NCBI GenBank assembly: GCA_903897335.1
Contig: CAIUAY010000165.1
Location: 1 to 46,466, forward strand
Length of the DNA stretch: 46,466 nucleotides
Reading direction: 5' to 3'
Source: an uncultured Chromatium sp.
GTDB taxonomy: Bacteria; Pseudomonadota; Gammaproteobacteria; Chromatiales; Chromatiaceae
The position numbers and the translations under genes were made by a program. A model generated the notes under the pieces. The model ran no database searches. It saw only the letters and a list, made by a program, of their open reading frames with translations, and was not told where the DNA came from. Within the stretch, counting starts at the first letter, position 1; the number at the start of each line of letters is the position of its first letter. This document shows positions 1,994 through 14,699 of this stretch, piece after piece.

Positions 1994-2479
1994 TTACAGG
2001 ATAGCGCCTGAGCGTGACAACGCGACGTGGGCATGGATGAGCCGTCGTGCCTGCGCAAGCATCGCCGTTAGCGTCATCTCGCCTCCGGGCGATAGCCGAT
2101 AGTCAGCATAATCAAACGATGCACCGCCGCCAGTGATCAGAACGCTGTCTGGCGCGTGACCATAAAGCGCCGCGCACCACCCAAGCAGCTCACGCGGATC
2201 AAGAAAATGCGCCATGCTAGATGCCGGACTGGTCGTGGGGATGAGCGGCTGACAGCGCACCGCGCCGGGTTCGAGATCAACCGCCGCATCGAGAAAGATC
2301 GCTTGGTCGACGACCGCGAGATCGGCGACCAGTTCGGCGGTCAGGATGTGGCGGGCGATCACGGCGACATCCGCTGGAACGCCGTCCTGTTCCAGCCGAT
2401 CCGCTACCAGCGGGCCGAGCGCGTCATCGCCCCGGATCGGACTGCCGTAACCGATGATCAGGATCTTCACCGGTGACAC
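1994..2479 (-). CDS. hoxW: [NiFe]-hydrogenase maturation endopeptidase (HoxW-like)
   Basis: A 161-residue protein of the HyaD/HupD/HoxW peptidase family, which removes the C-terminal extension of the large hydrogenase subunit once the NiFe(CN)2CO site is assembled. The N-terminal motif GYGSPIRGDD (10-19) is the family glycine-rich loop with the acidic nickel ligand. The gene overlaps the 3' end of hoxH by 13 nt, so the two are almost certainly co-translated, and hoxH encodes an intact cleavable tail. The specific HoxW name rests on this linkage and the match of its neighbour to HoxH; the peptidase family itself is clear. Confidence 0.88.
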   Translation of the reverse strand: MSPVKILIIGYGSPIRGDDALGPLVADRLEQDGVPADVAVIARHILTAELVADLAVVDQAIFLDAAVDLEPGAVRCQPLIPTTSPASSMAHFLDPRELLGWCAALYGHAPDSVLITGGGASFDYADYRLSPGGEMTLTAMLAQARRLIHAHVALSRSGAIL

Positions 2480-3909
2480 TCGGTGGAACGGGTGAGGGTA
2501 TCAATCACCTGTCCGCTGGCGTTTTTGAGTTCAATCCATAGCGGCATCTGACCAAAAGCATGTGATGCGCAGGACAGACAGGGATCAAAGCAGCGGATGA
2601 CCGCCTCGACCCGGTTGAGCATTCCCTCTTGCAGATGTTTCCCGTCCACGTAAGCCTCCGCGACCTGCCGGATCGCCTGATTCATGGCGAGATTGTTGTG
2701 TCCGGTGGCGATGATCAGATTGACCCAGGTGATGAGTCCCTCGTCGTCGATCCGATAGTGATGGATCAGCGTTCCGCGTGGCGCTTCCGAGACGCCGATG
2801 CCTTCGGCGCGATTACTACGGGCGCGGGCGCGGACGCGAGTGTCCAGAATCGTCGGGTCTTTCAGCAGACGTTCCATCATTTCGATGGCATAGATGATTT
2901 CGACCAGCCGTGCGTAGTGATAATGGAAGCTGCTGGCAATCGGCCCGGACTCTTGCAGCATATGAAACTCAGCCAGCGCGACATCGGCATAGGGCGTCCC
3001 GCAGGCTTGCGCGTTATTGAGCCGCGCCAATGGACCAACCCGATAGATACCCTTGGGATAACCCTGCGGCTTGTAATAGGGGAACTTCATGTAGCTGAAG
3101 TCTTCGACGGCCTCGCCGATGATCCGCTCGTAGTCTTCGGGCGGCACCATGTCCTCGACGATGCGACCCTTGGCATCCTTGATCCGCAATAAACCGTCGT
3201 AATGCTCCAGATTGCCCTGGGGCGTCACCAGACTTAGGAACATGGTCGGCAGCGTTCCGAAATGATCAGCTTCATGTTTGAACTTCGGCACCAGCGTCTT
3301 GAAAAAATCGTAGGTGCGCCGCGCAATTTCCAGCCCCTCCGGGAGCAGTTTGAGCATGGCGTCGCGCTTCTCCAGCGTCAGCGGCTCATTGACGCCGCCG
3401 GGCACCACCCAGGTTGGATGGATCTTCTTGCCGCCGAGCATTTCGATGATGGTCTGGCCGATCTGACGCAGCCGGATACCGTCTTTCGCCAGATCAGGAT
3501 GCTCGCGCATCACGCCGAAGATGTTGCGCGTGGCTGGATCAGCATCCCAGCCGAACAGCAGATCGGGCGAGGACAGATGAAAAAATGACAGCGCGTGTGA
3601 TTGGGTGAACTGCGCCAGATTCATGATCCGGCGCAGATGTTCGCCGGTCGGCGGAATGCTGACCGACAGCAGATGGTCACAGGCTTTATTGGAAGCCAGC
3701 AGGTGACTGACCGGACAGATGCCGCAGGTACGCGCCGTGAGCGCGGGCATTTCACGATAGGGGCGACCTTCGCAGAATTTCTCAAAACCGCGAAACTGGG
3801 TGAGATGAAACCGTGCATCCTCGACCTCGCCCTCATCGCCAAGTTGCAGGCTGATGCGGGCGTGTCCCTCGATGCGGGTGACGGGTTCGATGCTGATGGT
3901 GCGACTCAT
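2467..3909 (-). CDS. hoxH: NAD-linked bidirectional [NiFe]-hydrogenase large subunit HoxH
   Basis: The catalytic subunit of a group 3d (Hox) hydrogenase, which holds the NiFe centre and interconverts H2 with protons and electrons; normally it works with HoxY and the diaphorase HoxFU(E). Both nickel-binding motifs are intact: RTCGICPVSH (60-69; C62, C65) and DPCLSCASH (442-450; C444, C447). Processing by a maturation peptidase is expected after H450, removing the last 30 residues. The 480-aa length is normal. HoxW overlaps downstream by 13 nt. Unusually, no hoxY, hoxU, hoxF or hoxE lies upstream; the next gene is a HicA toxin 44 bp away. Either the operon was split or the partners lie elsewhere. 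Confidence 0.93.
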   Translation of the reverse strand: MSRTISIEPVTRIEGHARISLQLGDEGEVEDARFHLTQFRGFEKFCEGRPYREMPALTARTCGICPVSHLLASNKACDHLLSVSIPPTGEHLRRIMNLAQFTQSHALSFFHLSSPDLLFGWDADPATRNIFGVMREHPDLAKDGIRLRQIGQTIIEMLGGKKIHPTWVVPGGVNEPLTLEKRDAMLKLLPEGLEIARRTYDFFKTLVPKFKHEADHFGTLPTMFLSLVTPQGNLEHYDGLLRIKDAKGRIVEDMVPPEDYERIIGEAVEDFSYMKFPYYKPQGYPKGIYRVGPLARLNNAQACGTPYADVALAEFHMLQESGPIASSFHYHYARLVEIIYAIEMMERLLKDPTILDTRVRARARSNRAEGIGVSEAPRGTLIHHYRIDDEGLITWVNLIIATGHNNLAMNQAIRQVAEAYVDGKHLQEGMLNRVEAVIRCFDPCLSCASHAFGQMPLWIELKNASGQVIDTLTRSTECHR

Positions 3910-3953: not shown

Positions 3954-4175
3954 TTAGGTGCGTCGTGCCGTGATGAATTCTTCGAGAGAGGCATCAGCTT
4001 GCTTGAGAATGCCAACAAGGGTTCCGGGCTTGATTTCCCGATGATTTGGAACCAAGCAACCAGATGACTGACGGCGCAACACGATATAGCTGCCACGTTG
4101 ACGCACCACAACGAAACCCAGTTTTTCCAATGCCCGGACTCTCTCCATCCCTAAGGTGATGGGTAGTTTAGGCAT
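3954..4175 (-). CDS. hicA: HicA-family toxin with altered active-site motif
   Basis: A small YcfA/HicA-type double-stranded-RNA-binding-fold protein, normally an mRNA interferase that cuts transcripts independently of ribosomes. The family pattern is clear: ALEKLGFVVVRQRGS, VPNHREIKPGTL and ILKQA. I place the start at the internal ATG beginning MPKLP (73 aa), which overlaps the hicB stop by 8 nt (ATGCCTAA) and matches the usual family N-terminus; an ATG five codons upstream is possible. The catalytic His of the GSH motif is Tyr here (codon TAT, Y30 from this start), one transition from His, so the nuclease may be weak or dead. It lies directly upstream of hoxH. Confidence 0.82.
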   Translation of the reverse strand: MPKLPITLGMERVRALEKLGFVVVRQRGSYIVLRRQSSGCLVPNHREIKPGTLVGILKQADASLEEFITARRT

Positions 4176-4374
4176 ATTCGCCAATCTCAAAGGTCGTGAG
4201 TAGCGGGCGAGCGACGACCTTCAACGGAAATTCTTCGAGAGACAGCGCGGTTGCTTCGCGCAAATTCGCCAAGGCGTCCTCAACGGTTTCGCCTTGCGTG
4301 GTTGTCCCTGTTTCAGGATTGAAGGCAATATATCCGCCTTCAGGCGCGGGGGTTAGGATTGCAGAAAGTTCCAT
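4168..4374 (-). CDS. hicB: HicB-family antitoxin
   Basis: A 68-residue HicB-type antitoxin with the family partial RNase H-like fold: an N-terminal strand, a GGYIAFNPE segment, then TTQGETVEDALANLREA, which matches the typical antitoxin core. It lacks a C-terminal DNA-binding extension, as short HicB proteins do, so repression of its own promoter would need another factor. Gene order is antitoxin first, toxin second, with an 8-nt overlap. No strong ribosome-binding site is visible before the ATG. Confidence 0.85.
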   Translation of the reverse strand: MELSAILTPAPEGGYIAFNPETGTTTQGETVEDALANLREATALSLEEFPLKVVARPLLTTFEIGEYA

Positions 4375-4620: not shown

Positions 4621-5871
4621 TCAAAACAGTTGTGACTGCTTAAGAATATAACCAGCCGGTTTTTTTGGCTTTTCAATCATGCCCTCGGTGACGAGGCGCT
4701 CTAGCCAGAGTTTGGCCTGGGCGGGCGATACCGCAAGCGCGGTGGCAATCTCTGCGTCTTTTAGCGGCGAGCGTATTTGCAGCAGTTGCTGCGTGAGCTG
4801 ACGTACGCTCTCAAACAGCGCCTCGGCGGGTGTTGATTCCGATTGTGCAGACTGATGATCCATTGTTAGTGCGACCGGAACCTGCGGTTCAGGCAGCGGT
4901 TTTTCTGGTTCATCGGCGAGCGGATCGGCAGGCGTCACATCGAACAATTTAACAAACGCATCCACATCCTCGGGATTCGGCCACAGTCGCGCACCCTTAT
5001 CGCGTAACGCCGCGAGTCCGTCGGAAAACGTCCCAGTTGAACGCACATAAACGGGTACCAGCCGGAGCTTATCCAACTGCTCCTTGGCACCAGCCCAGGT
5101 GCCGCCTTTATCGAGATCGGAACTCATCACCAGCGCGACATCCGCCAGCGCATAGATTAGCTTGTTGCGCTGCATGGCATGACCGACATTAAATCCGGCG
5201 CTGGGATCGTAGGGCGACACCAGAACCAACTGCTCATTCATGATGAGCTGGCGGTGTTCGCGGTTAAGCGTGGTCTTGGCGAGGCTGTCTGCCACGATCC
5301 CGACCGACCGACCGCCTGCATCGAGTGCACCACGCATCGCCGCCTGATCGATGCCCTTCGCGCCGCCTGAGATCAGGGTTTTGCCCGCCCGCGCCGCGAG
5401 TTTACCCACATCCAGCGTCTCGTCGATTAGTCGGTCATCGACATGCCGCGAGCCGACTACCGCCAGACCGCCACTTTCCAACAGGCCGCGCTCGCCACAG
5501 CCATAAAGCACGGCAGGCGCATCCTCTTTCAGGCGCAGTTTCAGACGGGCGGGATAATCGGCATCCGCACGACTGAGGATCCAGATTGCTCGCGTCTGCC
5601 AGTGTTCGATGGCCTGACTCAACAGCAGGCCACGCTCCAGCAAACGCTTCAGACGATCCGCCGCGATGATCGGCTGGCAGGTCTCCAACAATTCTGCCGC
5701 CGTGGGTGACAACAGATCTGCGGGCTGGCGTTCGAGGTCGCGCAGATGAAGGGCAAGGCGCTTGTATTCGCCAGGCGTCAGCAGCTCGGTGGATGCCACA
5801 CTGCGTCCCACGATTAGGGGCGCGGTGAGGAGCAGGATCGCCTGTGTGTTGCGTGAAAGGTCTGGCATCAT
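4621..5871 (-). CDS. DprA-family protein (SLOG/Rossmann) paired with RecQ-PRTase
   Basis: A 416-residue DprA/Smf-like protein. The central Rossmann fold shows [11 protein letters not shown], then [19 protein letters not shown], matching DprA's VGSR and SGxAxGID motifs, though the usual His after GIDxxA is Met. The C-terminal about 60 residues ([17 protein letters not shown] onward) form a winged-helix-like domain, as in many DprA proteins. Classical DprA loads RecA on single-stranded DNA during transformation. This copy starts directly after the stop of a RecQ-like helicase/phosphoribosyltransferase gene (TGA/TAA-ATG junction at 5871/5872), so the two form a dedicated operon. That pairing suggests a DNA-handling or defence role rather than, or as well as, competence; this is inference. 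Nothing else in the operon follows it. Confidence 0.82.
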
Positions 5872-7953
5872 TTAAGCGTGTCCTGTTTGTGCAAGCGCCA
5901 CTGGAAAAACCTCGCCGCTGCGTTGCTGGCGCAACAGCCAGGCGGCAACCGTGAATGTCCAACGTGAATCCACCATGTCATCGATCAAAAAGACCGACCC
6001 ACGGCGCGGCAGGCGTTCAGCGCAAAACGCCAGCGAACCGTCGAGGTTACGCGCCTGTTGAGTGCTGTTGGCCATCGTTTTCTGTTCGGGGCGATGATCG
6101 GATTTGGCAAGTACAACATGAAAGGGCAAGTCGAGCGCGGTAGCGAGACGCTGCGCGAAATCAGGAACCAGATCGGGATGACGCAGCGATGGGACGCAGG
6201 TCAACCAGGTTGGCGCAGGCTGCGGGTTCCACTCCCGAATCATGGTGACGCAAGCCGCGACCAGCACATCAGAAAATCGTCCGTCCTGATACTTGCCCTG
6301 CCTCACGAAACCGCCCCAGCCGGCATCACCCCAAACCGATAATGCGCGACCGGGTTGCGCCTGATGCGCAGTAGTAATCGCGCTATTGATCCCGTAACGC
6401 GGCAGTCCGCCCGGGGGCCATTTCCGGCGCGGTTCGATCAGGAGGCTGGTGCGGCGCAAAAAGGCCACGGCCTCCTGCATCAGGACCGCATCGACCGTCG
6501 TTGACAACGGCGGCAGGCGCGGCGGAGCCAGTTTGTCGGGGTCACCATCCAGCGCCTGAATCAAAAATCGCATCTGCTCGCCAAACGGCAAATCGAGATA
6601 GGCCTGCATCTGTTGCTGTTCAAGACGACGCAAGTCGGTGAGCCGTTCCGCTCGCGCCCAGAATTCGGCGCTCAGGCGCGCCGTGGTCAACTGCCAGCGG
6701 CTGCCCTGTTTGGCAATGGGGGCGGGCGATTCGAGCGACAGCAGATCGAGGGTCTTTTCGATCCGTCCTTTGCTCAAATTGATACAGCCCATCAGGTCAT
6801 ACAGCGACAGTCCGCTGCGGTGCCGTTCCAGGGCCTCCAGCACCTCCGCGACCTGTTGGCGCGTCGGAAAGGCGTTGTCGATAAACCAGTCTGTAATCGT
6901 GGTATCTTCCGTGCCGCTCAATAACACGCCATAAGCCGTTTCGAGTGCCCGTCCTGCCCGTCCCACCTGCTGGTAGTAGGCGACGACCGAGCCGGGCATC
7001 TGGTAATGGATCACGAATGCCAGATCAGGCTTGTCATAACCCATGCCCAGCGCGGTGGTGGCAACTAGCGCCTTGACCCGGTTATGCAGCAAATCCTGCT
7101 CCAATGCGATCCGGCGTTCTGCCGCAATGTCACTGGTGTATGCCGCAACCGCAAAGCCGTGTGTTGTCAGCCAGTCGGCAACCTGATTGGCGTCACGCAC
7201 CGTCAGGGCATAGATAATGCCGTGTCCGTGCAGGGTGGCGATTTGCGCGGCCAGCCACGCCAACCGCTCGGCCTGATCGGGCAGGCGGATGGTTTGCAGG
7301 GTCAGTGACGGGCGATTCAGATCGCCGCGAGAGATGTCCAGCGGCGACCCCAGCACGGACTTGAGATCAGCCATCACCCGATCATTGGCGGTTGCCGTTG
7401 TCGCCAGTAGCCGCAGATTGGGCGGCAAACGGCGCACCACGCGCTCCAGCAGTCGGTAGTGCGGACGAAAATCGTGACCCCAATCGGAAATGCAGTGCGC
7501 TTCATCGATCACGAGCAGCGCAATTTGCGCCGCGACAGGTGCTAAAACCTGCGCGTTAAAATGCTGATTGGCAAAGCGTTCTGGCGTGACGAGCAGAATA
7601 TCGACCTGATGACGCAGGAATCGCGCTTCAATGTCGGCGTGATCGTCGGGATTGTCGGAATGCATGGCTTCGGCGCACAACCCCATGCGGCGGGCAGCAT
7701 CGAGCTGATTGCGCATCAGCGCAAGCAATGGCGAGACCAGCAGCGCCGGGCCGCTTCCAGCTTCGCGCAGCAGTTTGGTGGCGATGAAATAGACGAAACT
7801 CTTGCCCCAGCCGGTTTTCTGCACCACCAACAAGCGGCCATGACCTGCGACGAGGTGACGAATCGCGGCCTCCTGACCGTCACGAAAGATTGCATCCGCT
7901 CGCCCGGAGCCTTGCCTGAGCAATTCTAATGCGCGCATTTGTTGGTAGATCAT
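5872..7953 (-). CDS. RecQ-like DEAH helicase fused to a C-terminal phosphoribosyltransferase domain
   Basis: A 693-residue two-part protein. Residues 20-350 form a superfamily 2 helicase of RecQ type: Walker A QKTGWGKS (45-52), DEAH box with the RecQ-specific extension IDEAHCISDWGHDFRP (149-164), motif III TATAN, and motif VI YQQVGRAGR. A helical segment resembling the RecQ zinc-domain region follows (about 430-490), but the zinc-binding cysteines are absent. Residues about 530-690 form a type I phosphoribosyltransferase-like domain ending in VFLIDDMVDSRWT (about 654-666), the PRPP-loop motif with a diacidic pair. It probably translocates on or unwinds DNA; the substrate of the PRTase part is unknown. 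A DprA-family gene follows with no gap. This architecture is not the housekeeping RecQ and recalls helicase/PRTase genes of mobile or defence loci. Confidence 0.88.
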   Translation of the reverse strand: MIYQQMRALELLRQGSGRADAIFRDGQEAAIRHLVAGHGRLLVVQKTGWGKSFVYFIATKLLREAGSGPALLVSPLLALMRNQLDAARRMGLCAEAMHSDNPDDHADIEARFLRHQVDILLVTPERFANQHFNAQVLAPVAAQIALLVIDEAHCISDWGHDFRPHYRLLERVVRRLPPNLRLLATTATANDRVMADLKSVLGSPLDISRGDLNRPSLTLQTIRLPDQAERLAWLAAQIATLHGHGIIYALTVRDANQVADWLTTHGFAVAAYTSDIAAERRIALEQDLLHNRVKALVATTALGMGYDKPDLAFVIHYQMPGSVVAYYQQVGRAGRALETAYGVLLSGTEDTTITDWFIDNAFPTRQQVAEVLEALERHRSGLSLYDLMGCINLSKGRIEKTLDLLSLESPAPIAKQGSRWQLTTARLSAEFWARAERLTDLRRLEQQQMQAYLDLPFGEQMRFLIQALDGDPDKLAPPRLPPLSTTVDAVLMQEAVAFLRRTSLLIEPRRKWPPGGLPRYGINSAITTAHQAQPGRALSVWGDAGWGGFVRQGKYQDGRFSDVLVAACVTMIREWNPQPAPTWLTCVPSLRHPDLVPDFAQRLATALDLPFHVVLAKSDHRPEQKTMANSTQQARNLDGSLAFCAERLPRRGSVFLIDDMVDSRWTFTVAAWLLRQQRSGEVFPVALAQTGHA

Positions 7954-8261
7954 CTAGTTCTGCTGCCGATTCCTGGTAGTACTTGTGATAGTCCGCCAGC
8001 GTTGGCGTTGTGGCGGTTCGATCAGCACCGGATGTTGCGCTTTAGCAAAGCTAACGGGATCTTCAGTCCGATGCTGGCGCAGAAAAGACCAGAAGCCAAC
8101 AACGACCGATCCCGTCGCTGACGGTCTGTGCCGTTTTCTGCAAATAGTAAGGAAAATTTGTAGAAAAATCGCGTTTATGGCCGGAACAAGGCGCTTTATC
8201 GAGGGAAAAGCCTCTTGATGGCTTCTTTCAGCCAATCTGGACGCTCAAGTCCGACGGGCTG
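7954..8261. other. Intergenic region between recQ-PRTase and cydC
   Basis: About 310 bp, more AT-rich than its flanks. A minus-strand open frame (7954-8235) ends exactly at the RecQ-PRTase start codon, but its composition is arginine-rich and low in secondary-structure signal, and I recognise no domain, so I do not call it. The promoter of the RecQ-PRTase/DprA operon most likely lies here; I see no strong consensus elements. Confidence 0.4.
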
Positions 8262-9998
8262 TTAACCCGCATCCAGCGCCGGATTGACTGCAAGCAACTC
8301 GGACTGGGTGGCCTGGGGCACGACTGAGATATCGCCGTGTGCCAGCTCGCGTCCCTGATCCAGCACCAGCACCTGATCAACCCAGTCCAGTCCGGCGGGG
8401 CGGTGGGTGATCAACAGCACCGTGCGCCCGACCATCAGCCGATCAAGCGCCTGCATCAGATCGCGCTCGGTGGTGGCGTCCAGACCTTCGGTTGGTTCAT
8501 CGAGCAGCAGGATGGGCGCATCCTTGAGCAGCGCACGGGCGACCGCAATGCGTCGCCCCTGACCGCCGGACAAACGTACGCCGGTTTCGCCGACCCAGGT
8601 GTCATACCCCTCCGGGAATTCGGCGATGACATCATGAATCTGCGCGACCCGGCAGGCGTCTTCCAGCGCGGACTGCGAGGCATCCGGGTTGGCGATCAGC
8701 AGGTTTTCGCGGATGCTGGCGTCAAACAGATGGGTATGCTGGCTGACGACGGCGATGTGTCGGCGCAAATCTTCGCCATGAAACGCTGCGATGTCATGCC
8801 CGCCGATGCGAATCGTTCCCGCATCAGCAGCCCAGAACCGCAGCAGCAGATTGAACAGCGTGCTTTTGCCGGAGCCGGTCGCGCCGATCACGGCGGCGCG
8901 GCTGCCTTGCGGGATGTGCAGACTGATATCTGAGACCGCAAGACGTGCGGCGTTCGGATAACGAAAACTGATCTGCTCGAAAGCAATGTCGAAGCAGGCA
9001 GGTTGGGGCGAAAGGCCGACCGGTTCGGTCACTGCCGGCACCGCATCGACGATCTCGAACAGCCGATGGGCGGCGGCCAGGCTCCGTCCGAGGAATTGAA
9101 AAGCCTGCGGCAGCGAGGCGACGGACTCGAAGCTGGCCAGCGTAAACAGCGCCAGCATGGCTAGATGGGGCGGCATGAGCTGGCCTTCGCGCACCATTGG
9201 TATCGCCAGCCACAGCAGCACCCAGAGACTGAGCCCGGCACACAGGCCGACTGCTGCCAGAGTCAAGCCGTGATCGCTGCTCAGACGCGACTGATCAGCG
9301 ATCAGACGTCGGCTCAGATGGTCGATGTGTTGCGCCTGCTGTTCAGTCATGCCGTAAACGGTGAGTTCAGCCATACCCTGCACCCCGTCAATGACGGCGG
9401 TACGCAATGCGCTTTCATCGCCGGTGATCCGCTGTCCCGGTGCCTGTCCGCGCCGCCGTGACCAGATGGGCAGCGCAACTCCGGCAAGCAGCAGAAAAAA
9501 CAGCCCGGCGAGCGCGAGGATCGGCGCATAAACGGACAGAAAGACCGTGAACAGCAGGACGCTGATCCCGGCGACGATGACCGGAACCAGCACCCGGACA
9601 TAGAGGTTGTCGAGTGCGTCGATGTCAGCGCGGATGCGACTGAGCAGGTCGCCGCTGTGATACTGCTGGAGCCGTGCTGGGGCGAGTGGTTCCAAATGGC
9701 TGTAAAACCAGACCCGCAGACTGGCAATCATGCGGAAGGTGGCCTCGTGATTGATCAGACGCTCGCCATAGCGTCCCGCAGTGCGCAAGATCGCGCTACC
9801 CCGGATCAGTGCCGCCGGGGTGAAATAGTTGATGGAGAGACTGGCCATGCCAGCCGTTGCCATCGCGGCCAGAAACCAGCCGGAAGCGGCCATGAGCATG
9901 ACATTGGCCAGTAGCGTGAGGAACGCCGCCAACGTGCCGAACAGCATCCAGATCCGGTAAGGCCGCAGCAGCGGCCACAGACGCAGCAGTGCTTTCAT
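8262..9998 (-). CDS. cydC: CydC-like ABC exporter (thiol reductant exporter subunit)
   Basis: A 578-residue half-transporter: an N-terminal six-helix ABC exporter membrane domain (about 15-310) and a C-terminal ATPase domain (about 335-560). The NBD has an intact Walker A (GATGSGKST), signature LSGGQGRRIAVARAL, and Walker B LLLDEPTEGLD. The segment GERLINHEATFRM and LEPLAPARLQ are typical of CydC. CydC normally pairs with CydD to export cysteine and glutathione to the periplasm, which is needed for cytochrome bd assembly. cydD is not next to it: the upstream gene is an OmpA-like lipoprotein, with only a small possible ORF between. The protein may pair with a distant CydD or work as a homodimer. 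CydC is my best family call; another exporter of the same clade is possible. Confidence 0.85.
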   Translation of the reverse strand: MKALLRLWPLLRPYRIWMLFGTLAAFLTLLANVMLMAASGWFLAAMATAGMASLSINYFTPAALIRGSAILRTAGRYGERLINHEATFRMIASLRVWFYSHLEPLAPARLQQYHSGDLLSRIRADIDALDNLYVRVLVPVIVAGISVLLFTVFLSVYAPILALAGLFFLLLAGVALPIWSRRRGQAPGQRITGDESALRTAVIDGVQGMAELTVYGMTEQQAQHIDHLSRRLIADQSRLSSDHGLTLAAVGLCAGLSLWVLLWLAIPMVREGQLMPPHLAMLALFTLASFESVASLPQAFQFLGRSLAAAHRLFEIVDAVPAVTEPVGLSPQPACFDIAFEQISFRYPNAARLAVSDISLHIPQGSRAAVIGATGSGKSTLFNLLLRFWAADAGTIRIGGHDIAAFHGEDLRRHIAVVSQHTHLFDASIRENLLIANPDASQSALEDACRVAQIHDVIAEFPEGYDTWVGETGVRLSGGQGRRIAVARALLKDAPILLLDEPTEGLDATTERDLMQALDRLMVGRTVLLITHRPAGLDWVDQVLVLDQGRELAHGDISVVPQATQSELLAVNPALDAG

Positions 9999-12589: not shown

Positions 12590-13957
12590 TTACTGTACCG
12601 TTTGCCGGATGGCATCCGTGTTCTGGAGCGGATGGACAGACTCGGAAATGGTTTCAGAAAATACGTTCATTTGATATGGCTCGTTTTTAACACCTGGATC
12701 AGGGCTGACTTGCTCAAAAGCTGGCTTCAATTCGATGCTGTTAAGAAGTGCGATCAAACTTTTGCCAACGGCCAGCGCGAGATTGACCGGAACGGCATTC
12801 CCGATTTGTTTGTACTGGCTCGATATTGACCCGGAAAACTGCCAGTCATCGGGGAAAGTCTGAATTCTGGCATATTCCCTGACCGTGAGCGGACGGCTTT
12901 CATCTGGGTGACAGCGTTCTGTCTGCTTTTGCGCGGGGCTGCACGTCAATGTCAGGCTTGGCGCATCCCATGAGAGCCGACGCGCCATGCCCGTTTTTCC
13001 GCCGCCAAGGAAATAACTTCCCTGCATGTATTCTCGCTGCAAGTGGTCGGGCAAATCGCGCCAATATCCACCCGGCGGCACGAGATCAAGTATTGCCTCC
13101 TTCTTTTTTGGATAGTTTTGCCCTGATGATTCGGGAACATCATCAGGATACAGTTCGCCTGTTTTCAGCGCGTCTTTTAAAACAAAAATATTGCCGCATG
13201 GAGATGGCCACTGGAATTTTGAATGTTTCACCAAGTCGTTTCTGATTCCGACAAGCATCAAACGCTCACGTTTTTGAGGCACTCTGTAAAATAGTGCTTT
13301 TAAGATCTTTGGTTCAATTAGCGTATACCCAAGATCCGCAATCACTGACTTAATCACGCTGATTGTTCGTCCATGATCATGCTCCAGCAATCCTCTGACA
13401 TTTTCACCAAGGAAAACGCTTGGCTGGGTTTCTTTGATCGCACGGGAAAATTCAAAGAACAGTGTCCCACGGGTATCCTCGAAACCAAGCTGATTTCCAG
13501 CATAAGAAAATGCCTGACAGGGAAATCCCCCAGAAAGAAAATCAACGCCACTGAATTCCGCGAAGTCAATATTTCTGATGTCACTCTCAATGACATTCCA
13601 ATTTTTCCTGTTTGCTCTAAGCGTATTACAGGCATGTTTATCTATTTCATTAAGCGCAACGGCTTCAAAACCCGCTTTTTCAAGCCCAATCGCTAACCCG
13701 CCAGCACCTGCAAAAAGTTCAATCGACGAGAATTTCCTTAACGGCCTGACAGTTTGTTCCAAATCCCATGTGGATGATAGAATCTCACGGATTTCTTTAA
13801 ATTCTGTCAGTTGTTCAAGCCTGTATTTTTTTCCTGTTTCGCATTGGAGTGGGGTGATCTTTCCGTTTTTTTCCCACTTGATTAATGTTGCTTTTGATAC
13901 CGAAACAATATCGGCAAGCAGTTCAGAATCAATCAGATCGTTATATGTTGAAACCAT
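12590..13957 (-). CDS. C5-cytosine DNA methyltransferase with N-terminal HTH (Eco47II-type partner)
   Basis: A 455-residue m5C methyltransferase. The core begins with motif I LFAGAGG (81-87), then motif IV GGFPCQAF (nucleophile C147), motif VI ENV (185-187), motif VIII QKRERL, and motif X IGNAVPVNLA. Residues about 10-55 form a MerR/helix-turn-helix-like DNA-binding segment (VSVSKATLIKWEKNGKI), as seen in MTases that repress their own operon. It overlaps the upstream nuclease gene by 17 nt. Its partner's family recognises GGNCC, so that is the likely target (inference). The gene is far more AT-rich than its neighbours and uses A/T-ending codons, a sign of horizontal transfer. Confidence 0.94.
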   Translation of the reverse strand: MVSTYNDLIDSELLADIVSVSKATLIKWEKNGKITPLQCETGKKYRLEQLTEFKEIREILSSTWDLEQTVRPLRKFSSIELFAGAGGLAIGLEKAGFEAVALNEIDKHACNTLRANRKNWNVIESDIRNIDFAEFSGVDFLSGGFPCQAFSYAGNQLGFEDTRGTLFFEFSRAIKETQPSVFLGENVRGLLEHDHGRTISVIKSVIADLGYTLIEPKILKALFYRVPQKRERLMLVGIRNDLVKHSKFQWPSPCGNIFVLKDALKTGELYPDDVPESSGQNYPKKKEAILDLVPPGGYWRDLPDHLQREYMQGSYFLGGGKTGMARRLSWDAPSLTLTCSPAQKQTERCHPDESRPLTVREYARIQTFPDDWQFSGSISSQYKQIGNAVPVNLALAVGKSLIALLNSIELKPAFEQVSPDPGVKNEPYQMNVFSETISESVHPLQNTDAIRQTVQ

Positions 13958-14699
13958 GAAATCCTTCGTATGTTTTGAATGACAAAAGATAGATGCTTTT
14001 TAAGAGATTTTTATCTATTGCCTTAAGCTCACTTAAAACCGTGTTAGATTTTTCAGGCAGACTGACGCTGGCGACAACATCTTCAATGATTCCAGGAAGT
14101 GATTCACACAAATTCTTGAAAGCGCATCTGTCGCCAGTTACCATTTCATAAAATTTATCGACTGACACACGACGTATTTTTTCGTGGCAAACCTTGTTTT
14201 TGTCAATACAGAATGACCATGGTATATCTTGGCTTTTTGAGGCAATTACCTCTACCAACAAGCAGGTTGCAAGCGGATCTTTAATCAGCGTATCCTGCAT
14301 TCGCAGGTAGGTATTTCTTGAAGAGGATGAATTCATTGTATTATGCTTGTTTTTCATCTCAACATAAATTTTTCTGGATTGATTGACAATATCGTAACCT
14401 GTATTTGGAACCGTCCATCCTCGACCGATAAACCTGAAGATATTTTGATGGAAATAGCCAATATGATTAGTATTGCTTTTATCAAGCTGCCGAATCACCT
14501 CACTTTCTATGACATCCTCAACATCTTTTTTATAAACAATTGAATCAAATGTTAGTTTGACTGGATCAATTAAGTTGCCGTTAAAGTCATTCAGGTCAAT
14601 CTGGAACCGGTATTTCATTACTGTGTTTTTGACATGCTCAAAAATGTCTTCATCACTGATGAATCCCAAACTGTATTTTTTCATGGTTAATTCAGCCAA
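13941..14699 (-). CDS. Eco47II-family type II restriction endonuclease
   Basis: A 252-residue nuclease of the PD-(D/E)xK type. The hallmark stretch is GYDIVNQSRKIYVEMKNKHN, with D103, E114 and K116 as predicted catalytic residues, followed by TMNSSSS, characteristic of Eco47II/Sau96I-like enzymes that cut GGNCC. Strongly AT-rich, unlike thrC upstream. It is the first gene of a two-gene operon with the methyltransferase downstream (17-nt overlap), so the nuclease is transcribed first; protective methylation must then rely on internal promoters or translational timing. The start at 14699 follows the first Met; M6 is an alternative. Confidence 0.88.
   Translation of the reverse strand: MAELTMKKYSLGFISDEDIFEHVKNTVMKYRFQIDLNDFNGNLIDPVKLTFDSIVYKKDVEDVIESEVIRQLDKSNTNHIGYFHQNIFRFIGRGWTVPNTGYDIVNQSRKIYVEMKNKHNTMNSSSSRNTYLRMQDTLIKDPLATCLLVEVIASKSQDIPWSFCIDKNKVCHEKIRRVSVDKFYEMVTGDRCAFKNLCESLPGIIEDVVASVSLPEKSNTVLSELKAIDKNLLKSIYLLSFKTYEGFHGFNI

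Follow-up and report, generated by a model that had tools for sequence, protein, structure and literature searches.

What is a RecQ-type helicase doing in one protein with a phosphoribosyltransferase (PRTase)-like domain, directly in front of a DprA-family gene, and does such a pair serve the housekeeping of its host or a mobile-DNA or defence function? The question was raised by a 46,466-nucleotide stretch of DNA (contig CAIUAY010000165.1, below called the window) from an uncultured Chromatium sp. of the Chromatiaceae. An earlier note, made from the sequence alone, had described the helicase as lacking its zinc cysteines, the PRTase-like domain as fused to it, and the DprA gene as following without a gap. 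All three descriptions agree with the analysis reported here. The TAA stop codon of the first gene is followed at the very next base by the ATG of the second (...GCTTAAATGATG).

Identity and architecture of the gene pair

The PADLOC profile PsyrT matched the helicase-PRTase protein with an E-value of 4.2e-266 (882.6 bits) over residues 3-692 (profile positions 3-686 of 689), and the profile PsyrA matched its partner with an E-value of 2e-131 (436.8 bits) over residues 2-410 (profile positions 2-396 of 398). Two full-length PADLOC matches in adjoining genes are far beyond chance. On the strength of these near-full-length matches, we identify the pair by its sequence as PsyrTA, alias RqlHI in E. 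coli, and the earlier note's mention of similar pairs in defence-island surveys was sound. The system is already catalogued, and the window pair is a further copy and no new kind. Several PADLOC models for DpdF, including the short C-terminal models PDLC02866 and PDLC02869, also match the PRTase region of PsyrT, so that DpdF calls from such models may in fact be PsyrT.

Table 1. Features of the window discussed in the text, with positions in the window or residues of the encoded protein.
Feature	Position	Strand	Remarks
psyrT (rqlH-like)	5872..7953	(-)	693 aa; predicted toxin
RecQ-type helicase part of PsyrT	about aa 1-430		Pfam DEAD, Helicase_C
PRTase domain of PsyrT, C-terminal	about aa 505-693		weak Pribosyltran match
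PRPP-loop core DDMVD of PsyrT	5968..5982	(-)	aa 658-662, in DDMVDSRWT (658-666); from alignment with relatives
psyrA (rqlI-like)	4621..5871	(-)	416 aa; DprA/SLOG family, C-terminal winged helix; predicted antitoxin
Upstream region of psyrT	7954..8261	(-)	presumed promoter
HicA-type toxin gene and small upstream HicB-like partner	3954-4374	(-)	directly downstream of psyrA
Nickel-dependent hydrogenase large subunit	2467-3909	(-)	downstream of the HicA-type gene
cydC	8262-9998	(-)	upstream neighbour of psyrT
Type II restriction-modification pair	12590-14699	(-)	Eco47II-like endonuclease and C5 methyltransferase

PsyrTA/RqlHI has been described experimentally as a toxin-antitoxin-like operon (PMC4670107), and annotation tools count PsyrTA as anti-phage defence. 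The PsyrTA system of Pseudomonas syringae (PADLOC PDLC03928/PDLC03927; Sberro et al. 2013, as cited in PMC8790059 and PMC4670107) consists of the same two proteins in the same order and with the same domains as in the window, but the window PsyrT comes from a lineage without RecQ zinc cysteines. P. syringae PsyrT has been described as an ortholog of RqlH (PMC4670107). In uropathogenic E. coli F11, too, rqlH lies upstream of rqlI in one operon and encodes a helicase-PRTase fusion with a DprA-like partner. RqlH and RqlI were studied experimentally in E. coli, as a genotoxin and the protein that restrains it; the window copy, a predicted pair of this type, lies in a different, Chromatiaceae-like host.

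Pfam searches placed DEAD (4.7e-24) and Helicase_C (8.5e-16) in PsyrT, and RecQ among the solved structures matched it by profile as well as by fold. The Walker A motif GWGKS (residues 48-52) and the DEAH box (150-153) are intact in the alignment with relatives; their counterparts in RqlH, K49 and D148, have been investigated there. The Pribosyltran match to the full protein (4.5e-4, 20.0 bits) was below the cut-off of 26.3. The isolated C-terminal domains of 19 of 23 aligned homologues matched this family, the best with 7e-11. A profile of the domain gave weak matches to solved structures (E about 0.01 to 0.4), which were PRPP synthetases and PRTases and aligned around the PRPP loop. The AlphaFold models of the two proteins were of moderate quality (mean pLDDT 71.7 and 70.4), and fold searches with the whole PsyrT model returned RecQ cores, with helicases filling the match list. 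The PRPP-loop core is intact and corresponds to the DIVD motif of RqlH (DMVD here), mutation of which abolishes growth inhibition and SOS induction (PMC4670107). The catalytic motifs are kept in nearly all of about 100 PsyrT homologues.

PsyrA matched the Pfam families DNA_processg_A (3.4e-34) and FaeA and has a C-terminal winged helix. Foldseek with the PsyrA model found DprA (3uqz) and ShosA (8zva), and the PADLOC ShosA profile also matched the protein (3.9e-25). At 416 residues, PsyrA of the window is shorter than the about 460 residues of most relatives. The window pair resembles ShosTA/DprA-PRTase in combining a predicted PRTase toxin with a DprA-like antitoxin. However, ShosTA consists of a DprA-like protein and a PRTase protein (PMC9122126), whereas in the window a RecQ helicase precedes the PRTase in the same polypeptide; a stand-alone PRTase toxin, by which ShosTA is recognized, was not found, the PRTase being the C-terminal part of the 693-aa helicase.

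Loss of the zinc site in one PsyrT lineage

The window PsyrT contains six cysteines, which are scattered over the protein (positions 93, 154, 390, 568, 586 and 644). A zinc cysteine cluster is absent, and in the alignment the zinc segment is free of any cysteine. A more distant type of PsyrT, represented by a copy on an E. coli plasmid (47.5% identical), keeps four RecQ-type cysteines. A tree of 99 sequences grouped all 87 zinc-less proteins in one clade with a support of 0.97, and each of the 12 proteins outside it had the four cysteines. Judged from this tree, the zinc site was lost once, as a derived change, since the zinc-less proteins share one supported clade and those outside retain the cysteines. 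This loss is the only trait of the window pair that is out of the ordinary.

The residue after DS in the PRPP loop is R in most of the zinc-less clade. The window loop reads SRW, while the other type mostly has SGW. A link between zinc loss and this G-to-R change was considered and rejected, because wider sampling found R together with an intact zinc site in Nostoc, Arthrobacter and Halanaeroarchaeum, which leaves the loss of zinc as the sole marker of the clade. One might speculate that zinc-less PsyrT is functionally distinct, engaging DNA or being triggered in a manner unlike RqlH, with PsyrA or a WYL regulator possibly taking over part of the sensing. We regard this idea as possible, though doubtful.

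Distribution and genomic neighbourhood

Of 210 host-family genomes, 17 matched full-length PsyrT at E <= 1e-150. Within the genus, the window genome was the only one of seven to carry it; the other six had matches to the helicase region only. Relatives sharing about 67-74% identity come from Betaproteobacteria, Gammaproteobacteria, Chlorobiaceae, Nitrospirae, Acidobacteria and others. The presence of such close relatives in several phyla points to horizontal transfer of psyrTA. A search of the phage collection yielded no full-length PsyrT. An empty-site comparison within the genus did not succeed: the relatives share only cydC with the window, and the sequence beyond it differs. In one genome (G001), the match extends past cydC by about 120 bp on its downstream side, to near the contig end, and hence no insertion boundary could be set.

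The genomic context was compared for 80 related loci. These are non-independent samples, and the pairing, co-variation and neighbour numbers describe this set. In these 80 loci, psyrA follows psyrT wherever the contig continues (it ends at L082 and L089). The pairwise distances of PsyrT and PsyrA co-vary (Mantel r 0.76, 0 of 2000 permutations). In three Chlorobiaceae loci (L062, L068 and L069, just after position 8070), psyrA has decayed next to an open psyrT, so PsyrT appears not to be lethal without PsyrA in every host, being tolerated in these three.

The nearest neighbours of the pair in relatives are enriched in defence genes. Among the 80 loci, 14 had a type I methyltransferase, 5 BrxF and 3 BrxA as nearest neighbour (family matches at E <= 1e-20), giving a total of at least 22. 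None of 70 control genes matched these families, and the control hits that did occur were ABC-transporter and MotAB-like; Fisher's test of 22/80 versus 2/70 gave p of about 3e-5. On an E. coli plasmid, psyrTA is surrounded by a type I restriction-modification cluster, on an Acinetobacter plasmid it follows the BREX gene pglX, and a chromosomal copy in E. coli adjoins conjugation genes and an ABC-three-component system in an ICE-like region. In about 22 of the 80 loci (e.g. L021:5088-5993), the gene immediately before psyrT encodes a conserved WYL-domain regulator, of a kind that co-localizes with defence systems (PMC9122601); in six others (L026, L027, L030, L031, L033 and L040) it is reduced to its 3' end.

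In the window itself, neither a WYL gene nor a remnant of one was detected by tblastn with the WYL protein of relatives, which does match other loci, and the region upstream of psyrT yielded no sigma-70 promoter-like site on the minus strand. The surroundings are only mildly defence-like, with the HicA-type toxin gene next door (Pfam HicA_toxin 7e-15; its HicB-like partner matches DUF7387, below the cut-off) and the type II pair 4.6 kb from psyrTA. The GC content of the Eco47II-like pair is 36-46%, compared to 58% for the window, and so the pair was probably acquired recently. For the hydrogenase gene, the best NCBIfam match was the F420-non-reducing hydrogenase VhuA, below the cut-off. The cydC gene stands alone in the window, with the best cydD match on another contig (C256), whereas a cydD-type ABC-exporter gene adjoins cydC in a genus relative (L116), which suggests a rearrangement at this locus.

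Proposed function and competing explanations

We consider it highly probable that the pair is a horizontally acquired PsyrTA operon with a PRTase toxin that is restrained by PsyrA, released upon DNA or phage disturbance, and used in an abortive-infection-type defence. PsyrT would be a DNA-tracking RecQ-type helicase whose toxicity resides in the fused PRTase domain. PsyrA, which is translated immediately after PsyrT, would bind to it and restrain the PRTase as long as the cell grows normally. Phage replication or DNA damage would alter the state of DNA or of DNA-protein complexes sensed by the helicase or by PsyrA, and restraint would be lifted. The freed PRPP-dependent activity would then damage nucleotide pools or DNA, and the cell would stop. 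For the activity of the window copy, its trigger and its chemistry, we infer from experiments on the homologues RqlHI and ShosTA. RqlH without RqlI is toxic and induces SOS in a manner that requires the PRTase DIVD motif, the two proteins interact physically, and the partner rescues toxicity (PMC4670107). Pairs of a DprA-like antitoxin and a PRTase confer protection from T7 and lambda (PMC9122126). According to a review, ShosT acts both as a phosphoribosyl transferase and as a pyrophosphatase and thereby upsets purine metabolism, T7 Gp0.7 being its trigger (PMC12593503). The nucleotide-derived signalling that the earlier note had considered finds no support in these precedents, which involve PRTase-dependent genotoxicity restrained by a DprA-like partner for RqlH and, according to the review, disturbed purine metabolism for ShosT. 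Its broader guess of a mobile-DNA or defence function was largely right, given a PsyrTA system that is patchy, spread over many phyla and often placed by restriction-modification or BREX genes. The favoured explanation also draws on the profile matches, the adjacency of the two genes, their co-variation and the conserved catalytic motifs. Speaking against it are the Pribosyltran score under the Pfam cut-off, the SRW of the loop, a native-host study in which E. coli PsyrTA did not detectably protect from phages (PMC12409345), the only mildly defence-like surroundings in the window, and the Chlorobiaceae loci with an open psyrT beside a decayed psyrA.

That the locus merely combines a housekeeping RecQ helicase with the housekeeping dprA competence gene is extremely improbable. 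Both proteins are similar to these families (TIGR01389, 4e-76; TIGR00732, 4.7e-27), and PsyrT shares with RecQ the helicase core, the DEAH box, the motif-VI arrangement and the fold. Unlike housekeeping RecQ, however, PsyrT lacks the zinc site and carries an added PRTase domain, and both proteins fall well short of the equivalog cut-offs (256.7 versus 640.2 bits for RecQ, 94.6 versus 191.15 bits for DprA). A separate dprA is present elsewhere in the genome (contig C112, 265.6 bits), and the PsyrT-like matches in genus relatives are confined to the helicase region. The patchy occurrence in family and genus is likewise unlike a housekeeping set that nearly every relative keeps in the same place, the finding that would have spoken against the earlier note.

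Two further explanations concern the role of the pair. Russell and Mulvey preferred a DNA-repair or recombination pair that benefits the host and is toxic only when unbalanced, and a cooperative DNA function was proposed by the RqlHI authors (PMC4670107). The intact helicase motifs of PsyrT suit this explanation, as do Gram-positive RqlH proteins found without a partner (PMC4670107) and the archaeal and Arthrobacter copies examined, which have no annotated DprA gene adjacent. We still judge it unlikely, since the patchy spread, the neighbours rich in restriction-modification and BREX genes, and the plasmid and ICE-like copies fit defence or selfish cargo better, and since deletion of both rqlHI genes had no measured fitness cost (PMC4670107). 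The other explanation is a selfish addiction module of no use in defence, which would persist because a cell that loses psyrA is left open to attack by PsyrT. Toxin-antitoxin behaviour of RqlHI (PMC4670107) and of PsyrTA (Sberro et al. 2013, as cited there) is in line with such a module, as is the lack of phage protection by PsyrTA in the native-host study (PMC12409345). The recurrent location within type I restriction-modification and BREX clusters, and the frequent presence of a defence-island type WYL regulator in front of psyrT (PMC9122601), argue against pure addiction, which we regard as quite unlikely.

Under the favoured explanation of a PsyrA-restrained toxin in abortive-infection-type defence, the window copy by itself is one more example of PsyrTA. 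Useful clues on PsyrT/RqlH come from a zinc site that a large lineage lost just once, from the frequent gene order WYL-psyrT-psyrA, and from the location in type I restriction-modification and BREX clusters.
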